Part shown: in pieces, positions 35,699 to 44,494 of the stretch
Layout: every line of letters begins with the position of its first letter
How positions within the stretch are numbered: the stretch's first letter is position 1
NCBI RefSeq assembly: GCF_014174395.1
Contig: NZ_JABEQD010000007.1
Location: forward strand, 1 to 64,000
Reading direction: 5' to 3'
DNA: 64,000 nt
From: Gluconacetobacter aggeris
GTDB lineage: Bacteria; Pseudomonadota; Alphaproteobacteria; Acetobacterales; Acetobacteraceae
Notes under the pieces: model-generated
Told to the model about the DNA's origin: nothing
What the model saw: only the letters and a program-made list of their open reading frames with translations
The model's database searches: none
Made by a program: the position numbers and the translations under genes

Positions 35699-36496
35699 TC
35701 ACCGCGCGAATTCCTCGCCATGCCCAAGGGCAATCAGGATGTCCCGCCGACGCGCAATGAAGGCCGGGTCGTCGCGAAAGCGCGGAAACGGCAATCCATT
35801 GTCGACCTCCCGGATGATCCGGGCCGGACGCGGCGAAAACACCAGAATCTTCGTGGCCAGCAGCAAGGCTTCCTCCACGTCATGCGTCACCAGGATGGTG
35901 GTGAAGGCATGACGCCGCGCCAGCGCCAGCAACTCCTCCTGCATCGTCATCCGCGTGAGCGAATCCAGCTTGCCGAAGGGCTCGTCGAGCAGCAGCACAC
36001 GCGGGTGGTTCACCAGCGCCCGCGCAAACGCCGCGCGCTGCGCCATGCCGCCGGACAGTTCATGCGGATATGCCCCGGCAAAATCGGCCAGCCCGACCAG
36101 CCGCAGGGCCTGTGCCACACGATCCTCCCCACCCCCGATACCCCGCGCCTGCAACCCGTAGGCGACATTGGCCTCCACCGTTCGCCACGGCAGCAGCAGC
36201 GGGTCCTGGAACACCAGCAGCCGGCTGGGGTCCGGCCCGGCGACACGCACATGATCGACCCCGATCCGCCCGGCACGGGGCGCATCCAGCCCGGCGATCA
36301 GACGCAGCAGGGTCGACTTCCCGCACCCGCTCGGCCCCAGCAGGGCCACGGTCTCGCCGGCCGGAACATCGAAGCTGACATCGTCGAGAACCGGCAGCGG
36401 CCGCGCCGCGTCGCCAAAAGCGTGCGAGACCGCCCGCACCTGCACCGACGCGCCCACCGACACCCCAGCAACGATTTTTTCCGCGGCAGCCGTCAC
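35699..36496 (-). CDS. ssuB: Sulfonate-type ABC transporter ATP-binding protein
   Basis: This 265-residue ATPase has Walker A GPSGCGKST, Q-loop VFQDPLLLPWRTVEANV, signature ELSGGMAQRAAFARAL, Walker B VLLLDEPFGKLD and switch VTHDVEEAL. These are characteristic of the SsuB/TauB/NrtD group. The GTG start at 36496 overlaps the permease stop (GTGA). It energises import by the adjacent permease. Confidence 0.88.
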   Translation of the reverse strand: MTAAAEKIVAGVSVGASVQVRAVSHAFGDAARPLPVLDDVSFDVPAGETVALLGPSGCGKSTLLRLIAGLDAPRAGRIGVDHVRVAGPDPSRLLVFQDPLLLPWRTVEANVAYGLQARGIGGGEDRVAQALRLVGLADFAGAYPHELSGGMAQRAAFARALVNHPRVLLLDEPFGKLDSLTRMTMQEELLALARRHAFTTILVTHDVEEALLLATKILVFSPRPARIIREVDNGLPFPRFRDDPAFIARRRDILIALGHGEEFAR

Positions 36497-37494
36497 CACT
36501 GAACCGTCTCCCGGTTCCAGCGCAGCGCCTGGCGGCGCGCGGCAAACAGCGCCATCGTCAGGCCCGAGAACAGCACCGACATCACCGCCAGCGCGGCATA
36601 GAGATTGGCATAGGCCGCCCATCCCTGCGCCCATTGCAGATACCAGCCCAGCCCCGCCTTCGCCCCCAGCATCTCGGCCACGATCAGGACGATGAACGAC
36701 GCCCCCAGCCCCATGAACAGGCCGACAAACACATGCGGCAGGCTCGCGGGAATCACGATGGTGCGGATCAGGAACCCGTCCGACGCACCCAGCGTGCGCC
36801 CGACATCGTACAGGCGGGAATCCACCAGCATCACCCCGGAGGCCGTCAGCACCGCGACAGGAAATGCCGTAGCCAGCGCGATCAGGAAGATGCTGGCGGC
36901 AGAAATCGTCGGGAACACGAACAGCGCGACCGGCAGCCAGGCAATCGGCGGCAACGGTCCCAGCAGCCGAATGACCGGATGCCCCCAATAACGCGCCTCC
37001 GGCGACCACCCCATCGCCAGCCCGGCCAGGAATCCCGACAACGCCCCCAGCCCGAAACCAGGAAACAGCAGCAACAGCGAACTGATAACGCTGTGCCCAA
37101 GACGCGCGGAATCAACGCGATAGACATCCAGCACCGCTTGCGGCGACGGAAAGAACGGCAGCGGCAGCCACCCGGTCTTGGCGGTCACGACCTCCCACAC
37201 CGCCACCACCACGCCCAGCGCGGCAACACGCCGCCCGTGCCGGGCCAGCGGCGCATACCAGCCGGACGGCCCGATCAGCGCGAACAGGCCGGACAGGATC
37301 GCGACCGCCCCCTCCAGCTCGACCAGCGGCCGCGCCACGGGCGCACGCACGTGGTCGGGCAACAGGCCCGTAACGGCGGCGGCGACGGCCCACGCCAGCC
37401 CGCTGACAAGGCCCGGCCACCACAGGCGGAAGGCAGGCCGTACGGCAATCGGCAGGGCAGCACTGTCGGCCGCCTGTCCGGTCAGGTCAGACAT
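36493..37494 (-). CDS. ssuC: Sulfonate-type ABC transporter permease
   Basis: This 333-residue permease has extra N-terminal hydrophobic segments (about 25-48 and 60-78) before the usual six-helix BPD domain. The coupling segment is RTLGASDGFLIRTIVIPASLP. It also has FPSPQAVLDVY and GPLPPIAWLPVALF, typical of SsuC/TauC. The N-terminal extension makes it longer than standard SsuC (about 260). ATG overlaps the binding-protein gene by 8 bases. Confidence 0.87.
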   Translation of the reverse strand: MSDLTGQAADSAALPIAVRPAFRLWWPGLVSGLAWAVAAAVTGLLPDHVRAPVARPLVELEGAVAILSGLFALIGPSGWYAPLARHGRRVAALGVVVAVWEVVTAKTGWLPLPFFPSPQAVLDVYRVDSARLGHSVISSLLLLFPGFGLGALSGFLAGLAMGWSPEARYWGHPVIRLLGPLPPIAWLPVALFVFPTISAASIFLIALATAFPVAVLTASGVMLVDSRLYDVGRTLGASDGFLIRTIVIPASLPHVFVGLFMGLGASFIVLIVAEMLGAKAGLGWYLQWAQGWAAYANLYAALAVMSVLFSGLTMALFAARRQALRWNRETVQW

Positions 37495-38587
37495 GCGCCG
37501 CCTCCCCCTTTGTCACGTCATCGACAATGCCGCGCGCGAAGCCCTGCGGGTCGAGATCGGGGCTCATCACACCGATGGTCTTGAGCTGCGCCGCGTAGAA
37601 CGCCACCTCCGCCGCAAGATCGTGGCCCAGCGGATGCATATGATGCGTCTGCATCCGCAGGACGGCGGCAATATCCTCGACCGGCGCCTTGACCGCACCA
37701 TATTGCGCAAAGGCGCGCGCCACCTGCATCGGGTCGGCGGCGCAGATTTCCGACGCCTGCACCATGGCATCGACCAGCGCCAGCACGGCCGACCGGTCGC
37801 GCTGCAACAGCGTATTGCTCGCCGCCACCACGCAGCACACCCGCCCCTGCCAGGGCGCGGACAGGTTGGACAGGATCTCCACCAGATCCCCGCCCGACCG
37901 GCGCTGCGCGAGATACATCAGCGGATCGGAATCGGCGTAGGCCTGGATATCGCCTTTCAGCAACGCGGCTTCCAGAAGCGGCGCCGGATAGACACGCCAC
38001 GCCACATCCCGCAGGGGGTCCACGCCGTTGCTCTTCAGCAGCAGGGCGAACGTATTGTACGCAAACCCGGTCGCGTCCGCGATACCGATGGTCTTGCCGC
38101 GCACGCTGGCGATATCGTCCGTCACCCCGGCGCGGCGCGAGCCGACCATGCGCATGCAGCCGCCATGCGTTCCCGCCACCAGCTTCAGGTCGAACCCCTG
38201 CTCCAGCGGCTTGATGAACTGCATGATCATGCCGGCTCCCAGATCGACCTTTCCGGTCGCCACCGCCTCCAGCAGGGTCGGCGTATCGGTCCAGTTCGTG
38301 AATTCGACCTTCAGCCCACGGTCGCGATACAGCCCGATCTGTTCGGCCAGGATCAGCGGCGCGACGCAGGGCGCATTCACCGGCAGCGACAGCCGCACGA
38401 TGCGCAGCCCGTCCGCCGTGCGCGGCAGCGGTCGCGCGCCGGAATGCCGGGCCGCCAGCACCGTGCCGCCCGCCATGGCGGCCAGCGCGCCCAGCACGAC
38501 GGCCCGCCGCCCCCAGCGCACGCCCGGTTCGGGCAGCGGCGGCTCGACGATATCGTCGACCGAACGATTATCCGATGGGTGGGACAT
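37487..38587 (-). CDS. ssuA: Sulfonate-type ABC transporter substrate-binding protein
   Basis: This 366-residue protein starts at ATG 38587 and carries a Tat-like export signal (WGRRAVVLGALAAMAGGTVL). The NMT1/SsuA-like fold is seen in LPVNAPCVAPLILAEQIGLY, GLKVEFTNWTDTPTLLEAVA and GKVDLGAGMIMQF. The helix AFAQYGAVKAPVEDIAAVLR is typical of the family's C-terminal lobe. The substrate is probably an alkanesulfonate or related organosulfur compound, judged from the flavoproteins encoded just upstream; no SsuD is nearby. Confidence 0.82.
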   Translation of the reverse strand: MSHPSDNRSVDDIVEPPLPEPGVRWGRRAVVLGALAAMAGGTVLAARHSGARPLPRTADGLRIVRLSLPVNAPCVAPLILAEQIGLYRDRGLKVEFTNWTDTPTLLEAVATGKVDLGAGMIMQFIKPLEQGFDLKLVAGTHGGCMRMVGSRRAGVTDDIASVRGKTIGIADATGFAYNTFALLLKSNGVDPLRDVAWRVYPAPLLEAALLKGDIQAYADSDPLMYLAQRRSGGDLVEILSNLSAPWQGRVCCVVAASNTLLQRDRSAVLALVDAMVQASEICAADPMQVARAFAQYGAVKAPVEDIAAVLRMQTHHMHPLGHDLAAEVAFYAAQLKTIGVMSPDLDPQGFARGIVDDVTKGEAAHV

Positions 38588-38595
38588 GACGCGCC

Positions 38596-39840
38596 TCAGC
38601 TCCAGGGATGCAGCGGCGGCCTGCGGCCATTGAGGTAGTAATCGCCGACGATCGCGTATTTCCACCGCACCGGGTCATGCAGCGTGTGGGTCCGCGCATT
38701 GCGCCAGAGCCGGTCCAGCCCCAGCGAACGGTCGGTCGATGCCGCGCCCCCCAGTTCGAACAGCCGGTTCGTACTCTCGATGGCAATCTCGGTCGTCAGG
38801 ATCTTGGATTCCGCGACCGCGATCTGCGCGGCAGCCACCGAATCCGGGGTCGGCTCATCCAGCGCCACGTCGATCGCCCGGCCTGCCACGTCCAGCAGCG
38901 CCCGGGCCGCACTCAGCCGGACATGCAGCCCCCCGAGCGCATGAATCGTGTAAGGGTCATCACGCGCCCGCTCGGCGCCACTATCCACCCAGGCACGGGT
39001 CCGCGTGCGGACAAAATTCTCGGTCTCCGCAATCGCGGCTTCCGCCAGTCCGGCATCGATCGCCGACTGAATGAATTGCGAAATCGCGCTGTCTGTCGTC
39101 GGGTTTTCAGGAAGATAAGCCTTCCACGCCGCGACGACCCGCCGTTCCGAAACCCGCACATTCTCGATCAGGACCTTGCCGCTGCCGGTACCGCGCTGAC
39201 CGAACGACGCCCAGTCGTTGATGACGGTCAACCCCGGCGCCGCACGGTCGGCAATGGCCAGCCAGCTCCGCCCTTCCTCGTCCAATGCCACGATCTGCAC
39301 CAGATCCGCCGCAAGCGCGCCGCTGGCATAATGCTTGACGCCATTGACGACCACATCGCGCCCATCGCGCACGAAACGGGTCTTCAGATCGCTGACTGTA
39401 CGCGTGCCGGTTTCGGAAAACGCGTTGCCGAAACGCCTGCCGGCCAGAATTTCAGCGAACAGGTCCGCCTTCTGCTCTTCAGTCCCGGTGGACCGGATAA
39501 CCGCCACCGTGGCCAGATGATTCTGCGTCAACTGGCCGATCGACGAATCCGCCGCCGAGATCAGCCGGATCACGTGCCCCACCGTCACATAGGATACATC
39601 GGCGCCGCCATAGGCGCGCGGCACGGTAACCCCCCACAGGCCCGAAGCGGAATAAAGGTCCAGTTCGGCGGAAGGAAACAAATCCCGGCGGTCCCGCTCC
39701 ACGGCACCTTCCGCGATCCGCGCCGCGACATCGCGTGCAATCGCGATCGCTTCTTCATCGTCGCGGATCACATGCGCCGCAGGCCGGGCAGCCGGCGGCG
39801 GAACCACGCCGCCGGCACCGACAACAAGGGGAATGCTCAT
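38596..39840 (-). CDS. sfnB: SfnB-family sulfur acquisition flavoprotein
   Basis: This 414-residue protein has the acyl-CoA dehydrogenase fold. The C-terminus TLHDPVRWKYAIVGDYYLNG...PPLHPW is the SfnB hallmark, and GNAFSETGTR, FGQRGTGSGKVLIENV and LFELGGAASTDRSLGLDRLWRNART are further family features. SfnB-like enzymes act with reduced FMN on sulfones and similar compounds in sulfur-starved cells. It lies 8 bases before ssuA. Confidence 0.88.
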   Translation of the reverse strand: MSIPLVVGAGGVVPPPAARPAAHVIRDDEEAIAIARDVAARIAEGAVERDRRDLFPSAELDLYSASGLWGVTVPRAYGGADVSYVTVGHVIRLISAADSSIGQLTQNHLATVAVIRSTGTEEQKADLFAEILAGRRFGNAFSETGTRTVSDLKTRFVRDGRDVVVNGVKHYASGALAADLVQIVALDEEGRSWLAIADRAAPGLTVINDWASFGQRGTGSGKVLIENVRVSERRVVAAWKAYLPENPTTDSAISQFIQSAIDAGLAEAAIAETENFVRTRTRAWVDSGAERARDDPYTIHALGGLHVRLSAARALLDVAGRAIDVALDEPTPDSVAAAQIAVAESKILTTEIAIESTNRLFELGGAASTDRSLGLDRLWRNARTHTLHDPVRWKYAIVGDYYLNGRRPPLHPWS

Positions 39841-39876
39841 GGCTATTATCCGTATTCTGTCCCGTAAGCCGGGAAA

Positions 39877-41082
39877 TCAGGAAGCCAGGACCCTCTGCCC
39901 GGCCTTGCGGCGAACCAGCTCTCCATGCGGCGCGTGAATCCGCCCGCACAACGCGTCCCGATGACATCGCTCCAGCGGATTGCGCGCGCTCAGCCCCGCA
40001 TTGCCCGCCAGCGACAGCAGATGCAGCGTCAGGTCCGCCGCCCCGTCGATCACCCGTGCCTTGATGACGGCCGCGCCACGATCGGCCGCCTCGGCCCTGC
40101 CGGCGGCGACGTCTCCCGCATACAGGTCGAGAAGCATCCGGTTCTCGTCCAGCGCCAGCACCACCCTGCCAACCGCATCCTGGACCGAGGGCAGCGTCGC
40201 CAGCGGCTGGCCCAGGTTCGATGGCACGCGCCCGCGCAGAAAGTCCGCCGTCCAGTCCAGAGCGGCCCGCACGATCCCGTCATACAGCGCCCCCAGCAGG
40301 CCGGTATTCCACCGCATCATGCCACCCAGCACCGGATGCCTCGCATCGCTTTCGACCAGATCCGTGACATCTCCGGCGGGGACGGCCACGTCACGGAATT
40401 CGACCTCGTGGCTATGCGTCGCCCGCATGCCCACATGGTCCCAGTTCCGATGCACGATCACCCCGTCAGCCCGCGCCGGCACCAGGAACAGCCCGACGCG
40501 CGGCGTCGGCTCGTCGGTCCGGGCCCGCACCAGCAACCATGCCAGTGCCGGAATGCCCGTCACATAGGCCTTGCGCCCCGTGATCCGCCATCCGTCCGGC
40601 GTGGCGGTGGCCACCGTCTCGGGCAGGCCACCATAGGAGGCCGAGCCCAGATCGGGCTCCGCCAGCGCGGCATTGATCAGCCCCGGCAGCCGGACATTCT
40701 CCTCCTCCAGCCGGGCCGCCAGCGCCTCCGGCCACCCCGCCCGCGCCGCAATCGTCGCATGAACCATGTAATGATTGACGATCACCAGCGCGGTGGAGGC
40801 GTCTCCCTGCGCCAGACTGCCGATCACCGCCTGCGCCGTCGCCAGCGATCCGCCCAGCCCGCCCGCCTCCCCCCGGCTGGGCAGCGCCATCAGGCCGGAG
40901 GCAATGAAATCGGCGATATCGTCGAACGGAAAGCCGGCATCCCGATCATGCCCGGCCGCCCGGTCCGCAAAGAGGCCGCGCAGCGATGCCGCCCGCGCCA
41001 GGATCGCATCCGCGTTCGCACCACCCACCTGTTCCGCACTCTCACCCCTGGAGACGGCGCGGGACGTCGGAATCGAAATCAT
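39877..41082 (-). CDS. Acyl-CoA dehydrogenase-like flavoprotein
   Basis: This 401-residue acyl-CoA dehydrogenase-fold protein starts at ATG 41082. It has GLMALPSRGEAGGLGGSLAT, the middle domain GRKAYVTGIPALAWLLVRAR and the C-terminal helical region (LSLAGNAGLSARNPLERCHR). The catalytic Glu of true dehydrogenases is not evident, and similarity is to monooxygenase-like members near sulfur-acquisition genes. It is the second of three paralogous flavoproteins in this operon. Substrate unknown. Confidence 0.75.
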   Translation of the reverse strand: MISIPTSRAVSRGESAEQVGGANADAILARAASLRGLFADRAAGHDRDAGFPFDDIADFIASGLMALPSRGEAGGLGGSLATAQAVIGSLAQGDASTALVIVNHYMVHATIAARAGWPEALAARLEEENVRLPGLINAALAEPDLGSASYGGLPETVATATPDGWRITGRKAYVTGIPALAWLLVRARTDEPTPRVGLFLVPARADGVIVHRNWDHVGMRATHSHEVEFRDVAVPAGDVTDLVESDARHPVLGGMMRWNTGLLGALYDGIVRAALDWTADFLRGRVPSNLGQPLATLPSVQDAVGRVVLALDENRMLLDLYAGDVAAGRAEAADRGAAVIKARVIDGAADLTLHLLSLAGNAGLSARNPLERCHRDALCGRIHAPHGELVRRKAGQRVLAS

Positions 41083-41095
41083 GAGGCTACCCGCG

Positions 41096-42331
41096 TCATG
41101 CCGGCACCCCGCCGGCCGCCGCATTCTGGCGCTTCAGCCCTTCGAGATAAGGCGTCCACAGCCGCGTCCCATTCAGCGCAAGGTCGCCCAACTCCCTCTG
41201 GCGCTGCGCCGCCGGATTGTGGGAGGCCAGGACGCGGGCATTGCGCCAGTGCCGGTCATAGCGCCGCGTCTCGCTGGTGGCGGACGCCCCTCCGACCTCG
41301 AACAGCAGCGTCGCCGCCTCGAGCGTCTGCCCGACGATGATCTGCTGCGCCTTGAACGCGATTTCCTGCGCGGTCTCGATCGCCGGATGGCCCGTCTCGC
41401 CCTTCTCCCAGAACGGCTCGGCCACCGCCAGCGCGTCGGATACCGTATCGACCAGGGCAGCGGTCGAGAACGCCAGCGCCGACAGCCGCCCGACCACGCT
41501 CTGGACCACCGGATCGTCCTTCTGGATCACCTTGCCGGGCACACCGAACAGGCGCGTCCGGGGCCGCACGAATTCCAGCGCGTCACGCAGCACCGCCTGC
41601 GCAATGCCGGCCAGCGCCGTATTATGAAATTGCTGGTAATAGGCCCCCAGATAATCCGGGGCGGGCAATTCCGTCAGCGGAGTCTGGTCCAGGATCTGGG
41701 CGGCGGGGACGACCACATTGTCGAAGATCGTGGTCCCGCTGCCCGTCAGGCGCTGCCCGAACCCGTCCCAATCATCGATCCGGGTCACGCCGGGGCAGTC
41801 GGCCCGCACGGCCGCATGGACACGCGCATTCTCATTGGCCGCCCACACCACGATCCAGTCGGCGTACAGCGTGCCGGTAGAGTAATATTTGGTGCCGTTC
41901 AGCACCCACCCCTGGGGCGTCTCGCGCAGGGTGGTCTTGATGACCGTCTCATCGTTCCGCTCGGCCATCGCCGCGCCGAACAGCGCGCCGTCATTGATCA
42001 CGTCGAACCAGGGACGCGAGTCCGCACCCTTCTGGCGCCGCCCCTCGATAAAGGCGAAATGCGCCCGCACGATCTGCGGGATGTTGGAATCCGCCGCCGC
42101 CAGCCCGCGCAGCAGCGCAAAACTCTCCCGCAGCGAGGCCCCCAGCCCCCCGGCCTCCCTGGGAACGCGCAGCCGCCCGAAACCGGCATCCAGCAGGGCA
42201 CGCACGGGCGCGCGCGCCAGTTCGCGGTGCTGCTCCCGCTCCACCGCCCCCGCCGCGATCTCGGCAAAAAGCGGCGCGTAGCGCGCCTCGAGCGATGGTT
42301 CGCGCGCACTCTCAAGGGACGACTGGGTCAT
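41096..42331 (-). CDS. DszC/SfnB-like flavin monooxygenase
   Basis: This 411-residue acyl-CoA dehydrogenase-fold protein carries GTKYYSTGTLYADWIVVWA, FGQRLTGSGTTIFDNVVV and FEVGGASATSETRRYDRHWR, patterns of the DszC (dibenzothiophene monooxygenase) group. Such enzymes use reduced FMN to oxygenate sulfur atoms. It is the first gene of the leftward organosulfur series. A flavin reductase would be needed and is not in the window. Confidence 0.82.
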   Translation of the reverse strand: MTQSSLESAREPSLEARYAPLFAEIAAGAVEREQHRELARAPVRALLDAGFGRLRVPREAGGLGASLRESFALLRGLAAADSNIPQIVRAHFAFIEGRRQKGADSRPWFDVINDGALFGAAMAERNDETVIKTTLRETPQGWVLNGTKYYSTGTLYADWIVVWAANENARVHAAVRADCPGVTRIDDWDGFGQRLTGSGTTIFDNVVVPAAQILDQTPLTELPAPDYLGAYYQQFHNTALAGIAQAVLRDALEFVRPRTRLFGVPGKVIQKDDPVVQSVVGRLSALAFSTAALVDTVSDALAVAEPFWEKGETGHPAIETAQEIAFKAQQIIVGQTLEAATLLFEVGGASATSETRRYDRHWRNARVLASHNPAAQRQRELGDLALNGTRLWTPYLEGLKRQNAAAGGVPA

Positions 42332-42409
42332 GCCTCAATTCACCATTAAAAATAGTTATTATGCGCAGAGTAATTTACGAATCGATCGTTGTATAGTCGA
42401 TTTTATTTT

Positions 42410-42426
42410 CACTATATATTATAGTG
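42410..42426. promoter_or_regulatory. Palindromic operator candidate between organosulfur and deaminase genes
   Basis: CACTATA-TAT-TATAGTG is a perfect inverted repeat (7-base arms, 3-base spacer) in the AT-rich 224-base divergent region between 42331 and 42556. It lies 79 bases from the organosulfur start and 130 from the deaminase start, so it could control either. No regulator gene is adjacent. Confidence 0.5.
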
Positions 42427-42555
42427 ATAAACGACCGAAGCACGGCGATCGGTCCGCAATCGTCTCGTTCCGATATCCAAAAGAAAGACGTGCCGTCAGC
42501 CGCACGACAGGGCATCATCGGCCGCAATGGCCCCGTCCCGATGGAGTAAGACGCA

Positions 42556-43578
42556 ATGACCGGCTCGATCGCCGCCTTTATCGACGCCCTGCCCAAGGCG
42601 GAACTGCATGTGCATCTGGAAGGCACGCTGGAGGCATCGCTCAAGATGGCGCTGGCCCACCGCAACGACCATCCGCTGAAGGACAGCAGCGCAGAGGCCA
42701 TCCGCGCCGGCTACACCTATCACGACCTGCTGTCCTTCCTGAACCTCTATTACGAGGGCGTCGAACTTCTGCGGACGGAGCAGGATTTTTACGATCTGTG
42801 CCATCAGTATCTCAGGAAGGTCGCCTCCCAGAACGTCCTCTATGCCGAGATGTTCTTCGACCCGCAGCTTCACACACGGCGCGGCATTCCCTTCGCGACC
42901 GTCATCACCGGCATCACCCGCGCCCGCAAGGACGCCGAACGCGATTTCGGCATCCGTTCGCAGCTCATCATGTGCTTCGTGCGCGAAATGAGCGCGGAAT
43001 CGGCCGACGAGACCTTTACCCAGGCCCTCCCCTATCTCGACGACATCATCGGCGTCGGGCTCGATTCCTACGAGACCGGCAATCCGCCCGCCAAGTTCGC
43101 CCATGTCTTCGCCCGCGCCCGCGCGGCCGGTCTGCATGTGACCATGCATTGCGACCTGGACCAGGAAAACACGCACGAGCATATCCGCCAGGCCCTCGAC
43201 GACCTCGCCAGCGAACGGATCGACCACGGTCTGAACGTGCTGGACCGCCCCGAACTGGTCGCCCGCGCCCGCGCGCGGGACATCGTCTTCACCATCTGCC
43301 CGTCCCCCAACGACGTCATCCGCCCCGGATGCGGCCGGCGCGACCTGCGCGGCATGCTGGATGCCGGGCTGCGGATCACCATCAATTCCGACGATCCGGG
43401 ATATATGAACAGCGCCTACATGACCGAATGCCTGCGCAGCGCGCAGCAAACGGCGGACCTGACACGGGCGGAACTGCTGGCCATCAGCCGCAACGCCTTC
43501 GATTCCGCCTGGATTCCCGACGCCGAACGCCGCCAGTATCTCGACGCGCTGGATCGCTTCGCAGCCCTCCAGGCCTGA
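42556..43578 (+). CDS. Adenosine deaminase-like amidohydrolase lacking the usual HAGE motif
   Basis: This 340-residue TIM-barrel protein has the zinc motif ELHVHLEG (H18, H20), H198, and NSDDPGYM (D279, D280). RIDHG (221-225) holds the usual histidine H224. In adenosine and adenine deaminases the fourth residue of HAGE is the catalytic Glu; here the segment is HCDLDQEN, with Leu201 in that position and Glu204 nearby. The substrate is therefore uncertain: it may be a divergent purine or pterin deaminase. It sits 10 bases before the OCD homologue and is probably cotranscribed. Confidence 0.8.
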   Translation: MTGSIAAFIDALPKAELHVHLEGTLEASLKMALAHRNDHPLKDSSAEAIRAGYTYHDLLSFLNLYYEGVELLRTEQDFYDLCHQYLRKVASQNVLYAEMFFDPQLHTRRGIPFATVITGITRARKDAERDFGIRSQLIMCFVREMSAESADETFTQALPYLDDIIGVGLDSYETGNPPAKFAHVFARARAAGLHVTMHCDLDQENTHEHIRQALDDLASERIDHGLNVLDRPELVARARARDIVFTICPSPNDVIRPGCGRRDLRGMLDAGLRITINSDDPGYMNSAYMTECLRSAQQTADLTRAELLAISRNAFDSAWIPDAERRQYLDALDRFAALQA

Positions 43579-43588
43579 AGGTCACGCC

Positions 43589-44494
43589 ATGCACATCTTC
43601 TCGGCCGCGCAGACAGCCAGCCTCCTCCCCTTCCCCGAACTGGTCGACACCCTGCAGGACGTCCTGCAGGATTACGCCGCCGGACAGATTCAATGTCCGG
43701 AACGCATGGTCCTCGACACGGCAGATGCCGGTGGCCACCTGCTCTGCATGCCGTCCGTGGCCAGCGACATCATGGCGACCAAGCTGATCACGCTCTTTCA
43801 CGGCAACCGCACGCTGCCCGTCATCCAGGGGCAGGTGACCTGCTGCGACGCACGCGACGGCGCATTCCTCTTCACCCTCGACGGGCCCGAAACCACGGGC
43901 CGCCGCACCGCCGCAATGTCGATGCTGGCCATCCGCCTGCTGCACCGCACGACGCCACGTCATGTCCTGATCATCGGCACCGGCACGCAGGCACGCGGCC
44001 ACATCAATGCCCTGCGGGTCCTTCACCCCGAGGCAAGCATCCATGTTCGCGGCCGCAACCCGGCCGCGGTCGCCACCCTTTGCGCCACCCTCGACCCGAC
44101 CGGCCACCATGTCCGCCCCGAGGCCCCCGGCGATGCCGAGGCCGTGGATGTCGTCATCACCACCACCAGCAGCCACGACATCATCTATGACGCAGCCCCT
44201 CGCGCCAGCCGCCTGGTCATCGGCGTCGGCGCCTACCGGCCCGAAATGATCGAAATCGGCCCGAACCTGGTCTTGAACAGCCAGCTCTTCGTCGACGATC
44301 CCATCGGCGCACCGTCCGAGGCCGGCGACCTGATCCAGGCCGGCGTGGACTGGCAGACCGTCCACCCTCTGGCCACGTCCATCCACACGCCCCCGCCGCC
44401 CGACATGCCGGTCCTCTTCAAGTCGGTCGGCTGCGCGGCGTGGGACCTGGCAGCCTGCCGCCTCGCCCGCCGCCTGGCAGAGAGCGTGGATTAA
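43589..44494 (+). CDS. Ornithine cyclodeaminase/mu-crystallin family enzyme
   Basis: This 301-residue protein has the NAD(P)-binding stretch HVLIIGTGTQARGHINALRV, the family segment ATKLITLFHGNRTLPVIQGQ (substrate-binding Lys) and VGAYRPEMIEIG with a distal Asp in FVDDPIGAPSEAGDL. Family members include ornithine cyclodeaminase, alanine dehydrogenase and ketimine (pyrroline-2-carboxylate) reductases. The specific reaction cannot be told. It follows the deaminase-like gene closely and converges on phrB with an 11-base gap. Confidence 0.82.
   Translation: MHIFSAAQTASLLPFPELVDTLQDVLQDYAAGQIQCPERMVLDTADAGGHLLCMPSVASDIMATKLITLFHGNRTLPVIQGQVTCCDARDGAFLFTLDGPETTGRRTAAMSMLAIRLLHRTTPRHVLIIGTGTQARGHINALRVLHPEASIHVRGRNPAAVATLCATLDPTGHHVRPEAPGDAEAVDVVITTTSSHDIIYDAAPRASRLVIGVGAYRPEMIEIGPNLVLNSQLFVDDPIGAPSEAGDLIQAGVDWQTVHPLATSIHTPPPPDMPVLFKSVGCAAWDLAACRLARRLAESVD

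Follow-up and report, generated by a model that had tools for sequence, protein, structure and literature searches.

An enzyme already described that bears closely on the locus presented here is Patl2390, the cytokinin deaminase of P. atlantica T6c. Excerpts of PMC13296781 place it in cog1816 group 3 (citing Goble 2011), give its turnover as 1.3e6 per M per s for N6-methyladenine and 8e6 per M per s for N6,N6-dimethyladenine, and state that adenine and adenosine are not substrates; an excerpt of PMC4574047 describes it as highly specific. The gene we discuss lies in a stretch of 64,000 nucleotides from Gluconacetobacter aggeris (the window), and the closest solved relatives of its product in a Protein Data Bank sequence search are 3ou8 (E 9.5e-83), titled an adenosine deaminase, and 3rys (AAur1117; E 1.9e-66), titled an adenine deaminase. 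We take 3ou8 to be PA0148, acting on adenine. Both share with the window deaminase their fold (Z 46-47), metal ligands and HxHxEG and SDDP motifs, but they carry HAGEEG where it carries HCDLDQEN, differ from it at N227 and W319, and fall in a separate group of the tree. Adenosine deaminases (e.g. 6n9m, 6n91 and 1add) also have the fold in common with it (Z 41-42), whereas the window protein is 20-25% identical to them and is without their Glu.

A purine deaminase without the catalytic Glu

The open reading frame at 42556-43578 (forward strand, 340 aa) encodes a purine deaminase of the COG1816 type that lacks this Glu and that we predict to act on N6-substituted adenine. It is a real gene, as attested by its profile scores (235 bits against Pfam A_deaminase, PF00962, cut-off 27; 345 bits against TIGR01430, cut-off 216.55) and by copies, 93-100% identical, in five further genomes of the genus. 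The cut-off of NF006850 (PRK09358.1-6), an adenosine deaminase equivalog, is not reached (369.7 vs 419 bits). The structural model of the deaminase (pLDDT 95, pTM 0.93) has 3rys as its top match in VIA-align 2 (Z 47.5, 1.6 A over 331) and 3ou8 as the next (Z 46.2, 1.4 A over 312), and Foldseek ranks the same two first, with TM by target of 0.93-0.96; these matches point to the barrel fold of the adenosine/adenine deaminase family. The family's metal-ligand set of HxH, H and D also appears to be in place, with H18 and H20 in the HVH of codons 18-20 (42607-42615, forward strand), H198, and D279, a metal ligand or base, next to D280 (43390-43395, forward strand), these roles being assigned by homology.

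Residues 198-205 (43147-43170, forward strand) read HCDLDQEN and the corresponding residues of 3ou8 and 3rys HAGEEG, in agreement with the original prediction that HAGE is replaced here and the catalytic Glu lost. That prediction went on to name Leu201 as the Glu position, which is the residue reached by ungapped counting from the His (H+3). There is indeed no Glu at this position, but HMMER, MAFFT and an hhalign comparison of the two groups all open a gap of two residues that sets Gln203 opposite the Glu, and we regard Gln203, not Leu201, as the residue that faces it. In the predicted secondary structures, the strand of a HAGE relative (L105, pLDDT 96) stops at the metal His and the helix runs from H+7; in the window deaminase the strand reaches C199 and the helix runs from H+8. 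Anchoring on the helix side puts Gln203 opposite the Glu, and counting from the His puts Leu201 there. Under either alignment (Leu201 or Gln203), the sequence is one from which the catalytic Glu is absent.

The HCDxxQ clade and its probable link to Patl2390

Searches with the window deaminase (P0001) gave a match at E <= 0.001 in 28 of 60 relatives and at E <= 1e-60 in 91 of 398 genomes of the phylum. Among the 29 motifs read at phylum loci (L022-L050), HCD occurs in L022, L023 and L024 and HAGE in the others, and at the family level a match at E <= 1e-95 is present in 3 of 120 genomes. A contig scan with two patterns, one of them derived from the motif, found 32 loci with H-C-D-[VIL]-[DN]-Q, 48 with HAGE and no intermediates among the best 80 of 593 relatives; in one of the 80 (L092) the deaminase gene is interrupted by a stop. 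Our alignment A3 holds 37 clade rows picked by motif, three of them the window protein and its near-copies, with this broken gene and a duplicate (L051) excluded. The original prediction had the other metal ligands kept, and H18, H20, H198 and D279, together with H224 and D280, are indeed conserved in all 37 rows. The residue at H+3 is V, I or L throughout, position 202 is D in 27 rows and N in 10, and H198, C199, D200 and Q203 are identical in 37/37, an identity that partly reflects the choice of rows by motif. Glu204 had been put forward to take over from the missing residue, which is hard to reconcile with position 204 being E in only 11 of the 37.

The motif is not chance, since it recurs as H-x-D-x-[DN]-Q in proteins found by overall similarity: all 14 from Paraglaciecola have HCDVNQ, and the eight plasmid proteins opened have HCD (six) or HADIDQ (two), with D and Q in each. 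As D and Q are kept in every one of these similarity-found proteins, some of them without the Cys, the Cys seems to be dispensable while D200 and Q203 stay, and the signature that replaces HAGE becomes H-[CA]-D-x-[DN]-Q, with H198 as metal ligand and D200 and Q203 conserved in all rows read. In the MAFFT alignment, the position of the HAGE-type Glu holds E in 33/33 HAGE rows and Q in 43/43 clade rows. In an 81-row tree, a single branch (98/92; recovered in 99% of 200 bootstrap trees) sets the 43 motif rows apart from the rest; the outgroup branches of this tree are very long, and its HAGE rows do not come together cleanly. With the outgroup and the motif columns taken out (76 rows, 310 columns), the motif and HAGE groups are both clean (SH-aLRT 100). 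Clade members occur in Proteobacteria, Actinobacteria and Lactobacillales. Seven positions separate clade from HAGE rows (present in 90% or more of the 43 clade rows and in no more than 25% of the 33 HAGE rows), namely A147, T196, C199, D200, Q203, N227 and W319, and four of them fall at residues 196-203. The clade-specific N227 (43234-43236, forward strand) is Arg in 26 of 33 HAGE rows, and the clade-specific W319 (43510-43512, forward strand) is Phe in 28 of 33. Judging from these alignments and trees, Glu loss is a trait of one widespread, well-supported clade apart from the HAGE adenine deaminases, and not a local oddity.

One branch of this clade has a further feature. Tat-like signal peptides are apparent by eye in the proteins of Sphingobium (L053, 7896-8010), Novosphingobium (L052, 7752-9023) and another Acetobacteraceae genus (L132, 8381-9571, minus strand; the same gene as L022), which together form the sister branch of the Gluconacetobacter copy (98/86). 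The starts read SRRAMIRAMAG, DRRQLIRAAMA and GRRAFLAS, and such a start is absent from the Gluconacetobacter copy. An exported cytokinin deaminase, if true, would be unusual.

Paraglaciecola, the genus of one clade locus (L073), probably connects the clade to Patl2390. Fourteen of its 22 genomes have an HCD gene, 46-50% identical to the window protein, and each of these 14 has a second match at 36-41% identity, which is HAGEEG in the three motifs read (G486, G487 and G495). The genome we take as T6c (G486) has three A_deaminase matches: the HCD gene at 2.906 Mb, the HAGE gene at 2.945 Mb and a distant one (134 bits) at 2.687 Mb. Gene numbers estimated in proportion to position, for a total of 4281 or 4313 genes and with tags assumed to be evenly spaced from base 1, come to ~2399-2417, ~2431-2449 and ~2217-2234, respectively, and the HCD gene is the nearest of the three to tag 2390; the literature yielded no other T6c tags of use for calibrating this numbering. 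The HAGE protein of this genome shares 58% identity with PA0148 and 50% with the adenine deaminase AAur1117. Since it is by homology an adenine deaminase, and that activity is absent in Patl2390, it is the HCD gene that should be Patl2390, and we infer from elimination, tag position and activity that this identification is most likely right.

The T6c HCD protein falls within the HCDxxQ clade in the tree, and if it is Patl2390 then the window deaminase belongs to the same clade as a characterized cytokinin deaminase. The two proteins are ~50% identical, have different gene neighbours, and differ in that the activity of the window protein is only predicted; carry-over of substrates at this identity would be reasonable, although specificity can shift at such a distance. 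With the T6c clade member as Patl2390, the window protein is most likely an N6-substituted-adenine deaminase. The modified purines and cytokinin-like compounds originally named as possible substrates gain support from this probable membership, and by the same token the system cannot be called wholly undescribed. The gene would be a further member of the cytokinin-deaminase subgroup already known via Patl2390, with Glu loss as a clade trait.

Gene neighbourhoods and the adjoining OCD-family gene

Gene maps were made with a purpose-made caller that was tried on the window, and neighbours were judged by eye and from BLAST clusters; in L137, L140 and L142 the caller covers the OCD gene with ORFs on the wrong strand, and in L076 it misses the deaminase. 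About 10 of the 32 clade loci from the best 80 of 593 relatives have purine genes nearby (L055, L058, L059, L064, L065, L068, L070, L072, L078 and L083; HMM scans covered some genes in six of them), and in ~22 of the 32 no purine neighbour was recognised. Actinomycete loci place a nucleobase permease and an adenine-deaminase-like gene beside the clade deaminase. L055 has a nucleobase permease (PF02133) together with a protein that resembles Ade (367 bits, below the cut-off of 472.5; nearest solved relative 3nqb), L072 has a guanine deaminase, a member of the urate-oxidase N-terminal family and the allantoinase PuuE, and L058 and L083 have PucR and GMP synthase, respectively. Two xanthine/uracil-type permeases, one by Pfam and one below its NCBIfam cut-offs, are found at L068, where a gene guessed to be a urate enzyme turned out by Pfam to be a Na/Pi cotransporter. 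L059 has HIU hydrolase, NUP, Bmp and a longer A_deaminase protein. On the window's own contig, ~77 kb downstream, a ~680-aa A_deaminase-domain protein (L143, 7510-10655, minus strand) likewise adjoins the gene of a purine nucleoside permease (NUP).

Five plasmid regions of Lactobacillales were opened, and in four of them an Ade-C-terminal protein and an NCS2 permease lie divergent from the deaminase, an arrangement that is perhaps a mobile purine-base utilisation cassette; it was not found within the short stretch of the fifth region, from Leuconostoc. Transposase or integrase genes were also seen near the cassette on plasmids of four Lactobacillales species (L145, L146, L147 and L148).

Purine genes were not found around the deaminase in the window, where the neighbours are of a sulfur-scavenging type. 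Divergent from it, the interval 35699-42331 (minus strand) holds a run of three SfnB/acyl-CoA-dehydrogenase-like flavin enzymes, of which one exceeds the SfnB cut-off, as well as sulfonate/taurine-type ABC transporter genes, and is likely an organosulfur scavenging cluster. The 224-bp gap between the divergent genes contains an inverted repeat, TTTTCACTATA...TATAGTGATAA (91%; 42406-42430), a putative operator. On the other side, ten bases (43579-43588) separate the deaminase stop from the start of an ornithine cyclodeaminase-family gene, just as first described. This gene (43589-44494, forward strand, 301 aa) belongs to the OCD/mu-crystallin family and is pyrroline-2-carboxylate-reductase-like: it scores over the cut-off of NF005603, the delta1-pyrroline-2-carboxylate reductase family (392.3 bits, cut-off 266), but below that of the LhpI equivalog NF045512 (374 vs 400 bits).

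Proposed activity and competing explanations

We think it probable that the product of 42556-43578 is a metal-dependent COG1816 hydrolase of the Patl2390 subgroup that converts N6-substituted adenines to hypoxanthine and an amine, whereas adenine and adenosine are probably not substrates; the OCD gene would encode a reductase of its own, found at this locus in a single genus. The substrates would be N6-methyl, N6,N6-dimethyl and probably N6-isopentenyl adenines. The mechanism of adenosine deaminase is the template for the hydroxide attack and for the proton roles of D279 and H224: a metal-bound hydroxide, held by H18, H20, H198 and D279, would attack C6, and D279 and H224 would handle protons as in that enzyme. 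The role of the usual Glu towards the N1 proton would most likely fall to the conserved Asp200 and/or Gln203, on a longer loop.

It is also possible to see in this protein an ordinary adenine deaminase with an unusual loop, catalysing the PA0148/AAur1117 reaction with Asp200 or Gln203 in place of the Glu, but we find this unlikely. The nearest solved structures are adenine deaminases, the purine-catabolism clusters at L059 and L072 would suit such an enzyme, and in two genomes (G472 and G473) the other TIGR01430 match is only distant (114-126 bits) and a full-length Ade-like match was not found. The window's own genome, however, has a true Ade (571 bits vs the cut-off of 472.5), which rules out the gene as the sole adenine deaminase of that genome; full-length Ade-like matches occur in 7 of 28 clade genomes and exceed the cut-off in this one only, where the one TIGR01430 match over its cut-off is the deaminase at 42556-43578. 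Against an adenine deaminase stand also the second, 36-41% identical match in all 14 HCD-bearing Paraglaciecola genomes (HAGEEG in the three read), the adenine-deaminase-like gene already present in the actinomycete and Lactobacillales cassettes, the second TIGR01430 match over the cut-off in both G470 (L068) and G474 (L072), and the lack of adenine activity in Patl2390, which most likely belongs to the clade. A catalytically dead or binding-only relative is barely credible. Glu is needed for full activity in adenosine deaminase, and its loss might be read in this way, but H18, H20, H198, D279, H224 and D280 are kept in 37/37 rows, the clade is broad, and its probable member Patl2390 is active at the turnover quoted at the outset.

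The original prediction saw the deaminase and its OCD neighbour as a small pathway, in which the deaminase might release an amino-acid-like amine from a purine conjugate, leaving the derived imine to the OCD enzyme. We hold this to be quite improbable, even though the two genes are adjacent, on the same strand and ~10-56 bases apart in all six deaminase-bearing genomes among the 14 of the genus. Among 50 deaminase loci, some with short flanks, an OCD homologue was found in four, all of them Gluconacetobacter (two of these loci, L051 and L136, lie on one and the same contig). An OCD homologue was not found beside the 72% identical Komagataeibacter copy of the deaminase, nor within 1.5 kb of the 71% identical HCD deaminase in another genus of the family (G537). 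An OCD match also occurs without the deaminase in five further genomes of the genus (G001, G002, G008, G009 and G011). In G001 the OCD gene is 87% identical and sits between a photolyase-like gene and an 84-aa gene, the same two that border the pair in G006; in the other four the homologues are 51-53% identical, and in the maps their neighbours look like an FAD oxidase and an aldehyde dehydrogenase (with Pfam names for L139 only). Since, among the loci read, the OCD gene was seen beside the deaminase only in Gluconacetobacter, we regard the pair as a local arrangement and the OCD gene as probably a bystander, functionally separate from the deaminase.

If the protein is the N6-substituted-adenine deaminase that we propose, it raises a mechanistic question, namely how an enzyme works without Glu in a family thought to need Glu for N1 protonation. 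We would tentatively, and with more doubt than belief, speculate that the clade represents a second, unreported catalytic solution in the purine-deaminase family, in which a two-residue loop insertion removed the shared Glu and a conserved Asp/Gln pair replaced it, a change that turned the enzymes away from adenine and towards its N6-substituted forms (cytokinins, methylated adenines); the solution may have spread on plasmid cassettes and, in the sister branch, been exported from the cytoplasm by Tat-like signals. The HCDxxQ motif goes unmentioned in the excerpts found on COG1816 and cytokinin deaminase, the subjects of the search in place of the motif itself.

The signature H-[CA]-D-x-[DN]-Q, together with N227 and W319, tells adenine deaminases apart from proteins that are likely to be N6-alkyladenine (cytokinin) deaminases. 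All six annotated plasmid copies that we opened are labelled adenosine deaminase, and because of these labels, and because the TIGR01430 cut-off is passed without the Glu, some number of clade proteins are probably misnamed. Many Acetobacteraceae are plant-associated, and for this family our reading suggests a route by which cytokinins could be destroyed or methylated adenine salvaged.
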